A stretch of 64,000 bases of DNA from Onchidella celtica (lineage: Eukaryota; Mollusca; Gastropoda; Systellommatophora; Onchidiidae): NCBI GenBank assembly GCA_963931925.1, contig OZ007570.1:43608187-43672186 (forward strand), in the 5' to 3' direction. The notes beneath the pieces were generated by a model. It did not search any database. It saw only the letters and a list, made by a program, of their open reading frames with translations, and was not told where the DNA came from. Made by a program: the position numbers and the translations under genes. This document shows, piece after piece, positions 18,601 to 21,600 of the stretch. Each line of letters begins with the position of its first letter. The first letter of the stretch is position 1.

Positions 18601-21600
18601 CCAGTAAACTGGACATTAATTAGCTTTCACACTTACTTCTCTCCTTCAAAGCCTGTCTGTCATTAGCATTATCCATTGACTTCTGTAGTTTTGTTGAAGT
18701 CATCAGTACAGAATCTAACTGGGATCTTTTGCTGTCCATGTCGTTTAGATGGGACTACAATGAAATAAAGAAAACAGTTAGGTGAAAAATGATAACAGAA
18801 GACAAAAATTAAATATACAAACATTACCTTTTTCAAATTACTCTCAAACAGGTCTTCTCACCAGACCCAAAAAATAAGAGTCTTCAGTTAGTTTACCCTC
18901 TGGTCAACAAATACGATGAACTAAAAGAAATTACAAAGAAGAATTCGAGCCTGGAAATAAATGAATAACTTTCGAAGTTTCTAACTTTTGTCTTGCGTAT
19001 CAGAAACTTGATGATAAAATATCTTCTGAGGCAATGAAGAATTATACACATGAGAACCTCAAAACATGGAATACAACTGTCACACAAACAAGACAGAACC
19101 TCCTTGACAAAACATTCAAGTAATAAACAAAAAAACCCAAAAATGATTCAAAGAAACACAGAAAAGAAAAACTAGTATATATGTACTTGTAGGAGAATTA
19201 ATATTTACAGAATCATAAACATACATGGCAAACACAACACCTATTAATGTGCATGTGTTACTTAAGGAATCATGTTGACAATGGTTGCAGATAATCATTG
19301 CATCAAAGCACACAGATGATCATTGCATCAAAGCATGCAGATGATCATTGCATCAAAGCACACAGATGATCATTGCATCAAAGCACATAGATGATCATTG
19401 CATCAAAACATACAGATGATCATTGCATCAAAGTACACAGATAATCATTGCATCAAAGCAGATAATCACTGCACTAAGGCACCATTTAATACAGGGACAA
19501 TCAGACTTAGAGTGTAACATGCAGCTAAGCAGATTTAGTCTCATGTTTCTATGACTGCAAATTGTTCATTCTGATGCAGCCATTCTGTAATCAATGATAA
19601 GTGAAACTCCATCAGTTATCTAAATACACAAAAATTTATTTTGTAACTCATTTTGTTATGAACAGCTACATATTACATGCACAAGTATCCTGCTCTCCTA
19701 TTTAAGACAAAATATGAAATGTGATACTACTGGAACCGAATTTGTTCTTGAAGCTCAGGCTGATTTCTTCTGATTCTCTTCAACATCTTTAGACAAAGCT
19801 GACATAAAAAAAATGGTAATGAAAATGAAGAATAATAAAACCGTCACTGCAAGTTTTAATTTTACTCATTGGGGAGAAAACAAAACAGGACTGTTATATG
19901 GATGAAATAGCATGCAGCTTATAAAATACCATGTGCACTGCTGGCAGAAAGCACAATTTCTGGGAGGTGTTGAGTGTCACAGGGGAAAAAATGAAATGAG
20001 ACAGATTAAAGAGATTTGTGAGCACAAGTACAAGAAAAACAAATTAATAAAAAATGCATATGTCCATAAATATAACTAAATGAACACATGCAGTTCTTTA
20101 AGCCAAAATACCAATGAGACATTGCTTCACAGTAGATTACTGAACAAAGTCTTGAAAAGGTACTAGTTACTACTGATAAACTCAGTGGAACAGGTAAATT
20201 CATGACAGAGATCAATCAGAATAATGGGCATAGTTTTGACACAGAGAAAAGAAGAAACTTTATTCTACAATAAGAAAGACAAAAAAAAAAATAGAATTAC
20301 AAAGGATGCACAATGTGCTCGGTGAGAATTTGAAAATAACTATCTATCTCAGTGCAATATCTGACAGCTGGTGTCCTACACTACAAAGAGGTGAAACCTA
20401 AGAATTTTATATATTTATATGAAGTCCTTTATGAAGACCAAATTCAAATAAACATATTACGCTTGCTTGCATATTATTGTTTAACACTTCCTACTTTCCC
20501 AACCTGCAGGATTTTCCATGACACCAGTAGCTGCAGTTCTGCAGTCCTTAAGCAATAAAATTCCCATTACAAACAACAGAACACAGGGATACAGCTCTTT
20601 TCTCATCCTCCACATTTTAAGGTACAAATATATACTTTTCCCACACAAATCTGTCAAATGGCATGAGCTAATTATTAGGCTTTAACTCATTCAAACAGAA
20701 AAAAAAACAAAAAAAAACGAGATGCTCTAAAATAATATGTACCAAGGGAGGTAAGACATGCAAACTAAAGAGGGAAGCACAAAAGAATATTGGTTGAAAA
20801 CTCAAACTGGGAATTGCCCAGCATGGGTGAAAATGGGTGAAGATTGGCCAGCGAAAATTCTTTCTAAATATCTGTTAGCCGTGGAAGAAGGGAATGGATG
20901 CACGGAATGCTCTGATTCCATCACCCTGGAAGATACAACAGTGCAGGAATACAAGCAGCCTTACAACAGCTGGGTAGAATGTCAGGCATACACGCACCTC
21001 CAGCAATTTGAGGTAACCAGTAATGTCTGCCATCTGAGCCTGAAGAGAACCTAGATCATGCTCAGAAAGAGACAGCAAGGAATCTCCATCACGAGGCTGG
21101 GGCGTATCAAGGTCAGGCAGTTGAGAGTCAGTGAGATGTTGGGAGTCTACCAGTTGTGAGTCAGAAGGGGATGCAAGGACGGAATCAGACTCACACTGTA
21201 ACAGAGTGGGTTAGTTGGTTAAACACTACAGAGGATCTTCAAGAGAATTAGTTCACTAGCATTGCAAGCTTACTATGGAGCATTCAGTTACATGCAGCTG
21301 CATTTTGTTTTCATTTATTTTGATTAATTTTTTTGAAGCCAAAGAGGCTATTCAAAGACTGGCATAAAGAAACTGATATGAAGTTTTACTATTGTCAAGA
21401 CATCCACCTTTGTTTTTTATTCTCATATTTTTGTTGGATTCAGCATAAAATCTTTTTTTTTTATTACAATACATCAACGGCTTGTTCGATAAAATTGCTC
21501 AATAAAATGCATGTATGAGAAATTTAATTTTCAAGTGGAAACTAAGTGCCATTAAAAGTAATACTATTTGAGCATCTTGGTCTATTTCTTTGTTAAAGAT

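Follow-up and report, generated by a model that had tools for sequence, protein, structure and literature searches.

Does the open stretch of 198 nt that lies between two rod exons of the dystrophin gene of the gastropod Onchidella celtica represent a real exon, and if so is it one that can be left out of the protein? It is found at 20998..21195 on the minus strand of the window, by which we mean the whole stretch of 64,000 nt that was analysed, and an earlier note based on the DNA letters had proposed it as an in-frame cassette exon of 66 residues with phase 0/0. We have assessed it for splice sites, open frame, codon usage, rank among exon candidates and number of matches in the genome, and have considered what its 66 residues would do to repeat 20 of the rod.

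The host gene and the place of the extra exon

Part of a dystrophin gene lies on the minus strand of the window, where tblastn with a human dystrophin segment gives a series of exons in order. As far as the rod is concerned, the exons are homologous to those of dystrophin in order and in phase. Our working set is the 11 exons defined by homology from 45271 to 15509 on the minus strand, of which the first (45271-45130) has weak support (E 1.4) and the one ending at 16718 has no placed acceptor. Exon numbers are borrowed from the vertebrate numbering and are approximate. Between two of the rod exons there are 17.4 kb with no recognised exon (45129-27718, minus strand), and the internal promoter of vertebrate dystrophin for Dp140 is in intron 44, near the position of this stretch, according to the accessible text of PMC1790709.

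Two exons of this series flank the extra exon. The exon-51-like exon (22255..22445, minus strand) corresponds to the end of vertebrate exon 51 and encodes a linker and, within repeat 20, helix A and the beginning of helix B. It opens with a PPP-containing stretch, ends in phase 0 and matches dystrophin residues 2466-2507 of 9c3c_D (phmmer, E 5e-9), and also has a weak match to positions 3-44 of the 105 of the Pfam Spectrin profile (E 0.019, below the curated cut-off). The exon-52-like exon (18637..18754, minus strand) corresponds to the start of vertebrate exon 52, begins in phase 0 and supplies the rest of helix B and the start of helix C. Helix C of repeat 20 and the start of the following repeat are in the next exon (17841..18040, minus strand), found by tblastn with human dystrophin at E 1.5e-4.

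The placing of the extra exon between the equivalents of exons 51 and 52, which are adjacent in vertebrates, is borne out when the two flanking exons are joined directly (22445-22255 + 18754-18637). Residues 2-107 of this join match residues 2467-2572 of 9c3c_D ("Dystrophin") at E 1e-17, with 106 residues against 106 and no net gap as judged from the equal lengths and not from a printed alignment. We take chain D of 9c3c to be rabbit dystrophin. In a gap-free pairing with human dystrophin there are 40 identities in 107. In the form with the insert the best match to 9c3c_D is reduced to 2467-2508 (33.9 bits) and stops one residue beyond the junction. On these alignments the skipped form is the one common to vertebrates, and vertebrate dystrophin (9c3c_D) has nothing at this junction that corresponds to the 198-nt exon.

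Structure of the exon and its product

The 66 codons are free of stops in frame 0, and there are stops in the other two frames. The intron upstream ends in cccactctgttacag, after which the exon begins with TGT, and at the other end GAG is followed by gtgcgt, so that 21195-20998 has the AG and GT ends and the open frame, in the phases of its neighbours, of an internal coding exon. Its length is divisible by 3 with phase 0 on both sides, and as there are 66 whole codons between two phase-0 introns, inclusion or omission leaves the frame unchanged. The description in the earlier note of an exon of 198 nt, open throughout and in phase 0/0, with AG acceptor and GT donor, is thus confirmed on the minus strand. 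Given the composition, the frame would be open by chance with P 0.08.

The product was described as Ser/Asp/Gln-rich and acidic with three DSQ motifs, and this we also find: 27 of the 66 residues are S, D or Q, there are 13 D/E against 2 K/R, and DSQ is present at residues 12, 17 and 23. By translation, composition and motif scan it is the first 45 residues (21061..21195, minus strand) that form an acidic, Ser/Asp/Gln-rich and Pro-containing segment. There is an SP at residue 9 and a TP at residue 31, and the motif scan gives three acidic-directed serine sites in the insert; we take SP, TP and acidic-directed serine motifs to have phosphorylation-type meanings. An in-frame ATG is present at residue 55. 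Searched by itself the insert has no match to any Pfam family at E up to 5, the spectrin family included, and none to PDB sequences at E up to 10.

Copy number and origin

In the 1.14-Gb assembly the 66 residues and 601 bp of surrounding DNA each have one match, which is to itself, in a search that skips very common words. The exon-51-like exon is likewise single-copy in the genome search. An origin from a mobile element was considered and is rejected, as there are no further copies in the 1.14 Gb of either the protein or the 601 bp of DNA. The insert was not found in the prokaryote and virus collections, and a control dystrophin exon was also without a match in the virus collection.

An origin as a tandem duplicate of the exon-51-like exon is ranked lower, as the indications are only suggestive. 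Shuffling gives P 0.006 for the match of the last 12 residues of the insert to helix A when the two neighbouring exons are compared, and 0.0175 when the 11 exons are; for the last 18 residues, which are not outstanding, the values are P 0.079 and 0.255. The last 12 residues score 22, but 21 or 22 is also attained by three other stretches of the insert with this length, and the score of the last 12 is reached by 0.83% of 3000 decoys (drawn from 3811).

Splice sites and chance expectation

Splice sites and branch sites were scored with generic matrices. The donor (20992..20997, minus strand; gtgcgt after GAG) has 5.2 bits and is second (tied) among the 12 donors scored, and on the whole minus strand 13 donors, this one included, have at least 5.2 bits. 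In the acceptor region (21196..21220, minus strand) CTAAC matches the branch site; its A is placed 16 nt before the exon, and no AG intervenes between it and the acceptor, which at 0.8 bits is the lowest among the 11 scored. The earlier note held that both sites looked weaker than those of the neighbours: this is so for the acceptor, but the donor is strong.

The frequency of such stretches by chance was estimated in two simulations. In the first, 20 Mb were generated from a fourth-order model of non-exon sequence. Open stretches of 150-260 nt in phase 0, with an acceptor and a donor that each equalled or exceeded those of the insert, occurred 35 times, or 0.11 times per 64-kb strand and 0.006 times for an intron of such size; none of the 35 had a GC content of 0.49 or above, in a model that is without the GC patches of real introns. 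In the second (10 Mb, 150-400 nt) only the summed splice score was matched, and 1.3 decoys are then expected per 64-kb strand. By the summed-score criterion (150-400 nt) the insert is the sole candidate on the minus strand of the real window, and the plus strand has none. Because 1.3 decoys of equal summed score are expected per strand, the splice-site evidence by itself is moderate, and near chance for the window as a whole.

The GC-rich stretch continues beyond the donor to about 20801. Downstream of the exon it has no donor above 1.2 bits as far as 20600, and no positive codon signal in the three frames examined. A composite terminal exon was considered and is rejected, as there is no A[AT]TAAA in 21195-20400. 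Among splicing-factor motifs in 21700-20400 there are TGCATG at 21296 and 20762 and ACTAAY at 21252 and 21215, which are not clearly over the background of 0.44 and 0.28 per kb on this strand.

Codon usage and exon ranking

The codon usage of the insert matches that of coding sequence of the genome, with dissent from the models trained on dystrophin only and on spectrin repeats only. In a base-by-codon-position model trained on the dystrophin exons the insert has -0.044 and is below all 11 of these, which range from 0.17 to 0.45; among 6349 open non-coding frames, 24.5% match or beat it. Because this set is limited in size and uniform in residue type, codon models were trained on other genes of the same genome. 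With kinase genes (6149 codons) the insert has 0.178 bits per codon, above 8 of the 11 dystrophin exons, and its score is reached by 0.13% of the 6349 open non-coding frames, or by none of 6061 when the retrotransposon-like region 54300-55800 is removed. With spectrin repeats only (1526 codons) it is last of 12 at 0.063, with 6.0% of the 6061 non-coding frames as good, and with kinases and spectrins together it is sixth of 12 at 0.197, a score reached by 0.16% of non-coding frames.

The broad model comprises kinases, spectrins and three long frames from BTB-domain regions, 10,184 codons in all and from outside this gene region. It gives the insert 0.201 bits per codon, which is seventh of 12; relative to 119 held-out coding windows this corresponds to the 94th percentile. 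This score is reached by 0.35% of the 6061 open non-coding frames, by 0.63% of 3319 that are GC-rich and by none of 1355 with similar S/D/Q/P/T content, where, as in the other tests, the non-coding frames overlap and the fractions are not those of independent trials. The first 52 codons alone are at the 84th percentile of 156 coding windows in the broad model and are equalled by 1.7% of 10663 non-coding and 3.7% of 5031 GC-rich frames, and are not coding-like in the spectrin-only model. Synonymous choice alone is weakly in favour of coding (P 0.069 against non-coding and P 0.34 against coding; P 0.32 with the small dystrophin training set). Immediately beyond the two exon boundaries, over 5 codons on the upstream side and 38 on the downstream side, the kinase-trained model gives about -0.05 bits per codon in frame. 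The codon test has its false positives, among which are frames near 45.5 kb and 3.7 kb. Long CT/GA simple-repeat arrays at 45340-46160 and 35400-35820 give spurious Ser-Leu and Arg-Glu open frames.

We also ranked all AG-to-GT candidates of 30-400 nt in the window with an acceptor of at least -2 and a donor of at least 0 by the sum of acceptor, donor and codon scores. With the 10,184-codon model the insert has 19.3 and is fifth on the minus strand, below three dystrophin exons and a retrotransposon-like stretch. The top twelve on this strand are 10 of the 11 dystrophin exons, the insert and that stretch, 55225-55038, which has no Pfam match and is so labelled by eye from an FADD motif. The other eight dystrophin exons have 9.7 to 17.8, with the eleventh, which was partly found, at 9.7, and the best other candidate on the minus strand has 10.4. 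The best plus-strand candidate, at 15.1, is in the neighbourhood of two real exons (15.3 and 14.4), so that the ranking is good but imperfect. With the kinase-only model the insert is fourth at 17.8 and the picture is the same.

Several other features of the window were seen in the course of this work. The best plus-strand candidate is at 14820-14899 and has a strong donor (8.3 bits), a weak acceptor and the product DSARQAIQETRERTDTTLDRVKNDYK. Another frame-neutral candidate, of 81 nt and with a summed splice score of 10.4, is at 45078-44998 on the minus strand, directly after the first rod exon; a 61-nt form in that region has a codon score of -1.1. A broken retrotransposon-like relic at 54525-55463 (minus strand) is in part exon-like in the ranking; 55266-55463 matches Pfam RVT_1 at E 0.0074, below its cut-off, and two neighbouring pieces have no match. 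There is also a 136-codon open frame at 28967-29374 on the plus strand, which starts AVKMPAGCIAVDCCDRGG and is THAP-zinc-finger-like by eye; a Pfam search at E up to 0.01 gave nothing for it.

Position in repeat 20 and the helical tail

According to the earlier note the insert would part helices A and B of repeat 20, and here we differ. The insertion point is at position 44 of the 105 in the Pfam Spectrin profile (from the weak match at E 0.019, below the curated cut-off), and with the helix limits of the profile the insert would fall inside helix B, about 13 residues after the start of the helix. Eighteen of the 61 spectrin-repeat matches listed for the genome begin or end at profile positions 43-45, so that the insert is at an apparently recurrent intron position of spectrin repeats, which suggests that a position inside helix B is recurrent across spectrin-family genes.

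The last 14 residues of the insert, AQMADITGYLKLLE (20998..21039, minus strand), form a possibly helical tail, with hydrophobic positions in register with the end of the exon-51-like exon. In an ungapped comparison with the last 14 residues of that exon the hydrophobic residues coincide (V/M, I/I, M/Y, I/L), and the register match has a marginal shuffle P of 0.023-0.036 over three lengths. The claim that the product is unlike a spectrin repeat agrees with the Pfam search but is to be qualified for these residues, which share the hydrophobic positions of the half-helix whose place they would take. The hydrophobic face of the tail is 17 degrees off that of the following half-helix; its amphipathic moment is ordinary (P 0.475), and moment and phase jointly have P 0.043. 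Its codon score is 0.31 to 0.43 bits per codon in four training sets. Helix A of repeat 20 is an equally good or better fit for this tail, so that a model in which the tail exchanges with the displaced half of helix B is plausible but no more.

Nature of the extra exon

The exon structure, the coding-like codon usage, the one copy found and the agreement of the skipped form with vertebrate dystrophin are all observed, and the element is very probably a real coding exon, for which we infer inclusion in mRNA. The reading most opposed to this is that it is a chance AG-to-GT stretch of intron, open but never spliced in. A decoy of 150-400 nt with equal summed splice score is indeed expected 1.3 times per 64-kb strand, the dystrophin- and spectrin-trained models separate the insert poorly from non-coding frames and the GC-rich block is larger than the exon, but so few open non-coding frames (0.35%) reach its score in the broad model, and so few stretches of the window (three dystrophin exons and one that is retrotransposon-like) match its total, that we consider chance rather improbable. 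Less probable again, by a good way, are two readings in which the exon has other limits. In one the acceptor is an internal site at 21039, and an exon of 42 nt would add only the 14 residues of the tail, exactly two heptads, to give a helix B lengthened in register and uninterrupted. The acceptor is better (4.2 bits against 0.8, with a summed splice score of 9.4), the coding signal of the tail is the stronger with every training set and the register matches, but an AG precedes it by 9 nt, no branch site nearby is good, and the total is 14.1 against 19.3 for the long form; because of this poor branch-site context, and because the 52 upstream codons look coding too in the broad model (not in the spectrin-only model), we rank the 42-nt form well down. 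Slighter still is the case for an alternative first exon of a short dystrophin, with an internal promoter and translation from the ATG at residue 55. Internal promoters are described for the dystrophin genes of vertebrates, sea urchin and fly in the accessible text of PMC1790709, and the in-frame ATG exists, but the exon is preceded by an acceptor with a branch site, and the broad-model coding look of the 52 upstream codons, unlike a leader, makes such a start very improbable.

A more serious competitor is a real exon that is constitutive, so that every long-form dystrophin of the animal carries the insert, as a lineage-specific change of repeat 20 with no switch. All of the evidence for a coding exon applies equally to this, the strong donor and clean branch site are in keeping with it and skipping is unproven by sequence; but the acceptor is the weakest of the 11 scored in the gene, and interruption of a repeat in a block described as well conserved (accessible text of PMC10293626) would presumably be easier to tolerate if optional. 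We think the constitutive reading unlikely, although it has more to commend it than those above. The weak acceptor makes conditional inclusion likely, and together with the frame neutrality and the conserved skip form it favours an optional exon. Our preferred reading, which we hold with somewhat more confidence than doubt, is accordingly of a real, frame-neutral and probably optional exon, by which repeat 20 gains an acidic loop and the tail may re-enter helix B.

Under this preferred reading repeat 20 would be an ordinary spectrin repeat when the exon is left out. When it is included 66 residues would be added about 13 residues into helix B, as a flexible loop, acidic and rich in S, D and Q and about 45 residues long, followed by the tail. 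The included form could then take either of two courses: repeat 20 may be interrupted, giving an extra hinge near hinge 3, or there may be a long loop after which the tail starts helix B. We prefer loop and takeover by the tail, because the conserved repeat then stays foldable. In this most likely mechanism the hydrophobic residues of the tail would fall where the displaced half of helix B had its own, the tail would become the new start of helix B and repeat 20 could still form. The long exposed loop and the displaced half-helix might be usable for binding or phosphorylation. It is tempting to go further and infer a regulated switch in the rod, in which an optional, acidic, phosphorylatable loop in helix B of the deeply conserved repeat 20 comes with a half-helix to replace the one displaced, and the repeat is thereby folded both ways and offers a binding or cleavage site in one form, but we regard this as speculative and on balance doubtful. 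If 66 residues can indeed be inserted into repeat 20, this would show directly where its conservation can be relaxed and by what means a spectrin repeat accommodates an insert in the middle of a helix, and it may bear on the design of shortened dystrophins.

Comparison with known systems

The hinges of dystrophin are between repeats. Hinge 3 is near the insert and is also an unstructured Pro-containing linker, but the insert is within a repeat. Exons 71, 73 and 78 of vertebrate dystrophin and exon 13 of dystrobrevin are in the C-terminal region. They resemble the insert as dystrophin-family exons that may be optional, but the insert is in the rod, inside repeat 20, and its weak site is the acceptor instead of the donor. 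In contrast the donor sites of exon 78 and dystrobrevin exon 13 are described as sub-optimal in the accessible text of PMC1790709, which also reports optional exons and internal promoters in vertebrate dystrophin-family genes, no homologue of exon 71 among invertebrate dystrophins, and an exon 51 that is much shorter, without much of hinge 3, in three fish. With regard to the repeat itself, the accessible text of PMC10293626 describes repeats 20-24 as a well-conserved block for which a functional explanation is lacking, and has the longest sponge dystrophin showing clear homology from repeat 20 onward. Our literature search, judged mainly from titles and the starts of abstracts and with most subscription papers beyond its reach, gave no report recognisable as an insert in dystrophin repeat 20, and there is no mention of one in the accessible parts of PMC4582122 and PMC3748829.

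The closest parallels outside the dystrophin family are in alpha-II spectrin (SPTAN1), for which the comparison is by description. On the C-terminal side of its SH3 domain there is an optional insert of 20 residues that is reported to permit association with connexin-43 and possibly to be JNK-sensitive (accessible parts of PMC6521328 and PMC3411717). Like the dystrophin insert in our reading it is in-frame and optional in a spectrin-repeat protein, but that of dystrophin is longer (66 residues), acidic and inside helix B of repeat 20. The calpain/calmodulin segment in domain 11 of alpha-II spectrin (accessible part of PMC6521328) is likewise a regulatory segment on a spectrin repeat, and is in this respect comparable to the loop that we propose for repeat 20.
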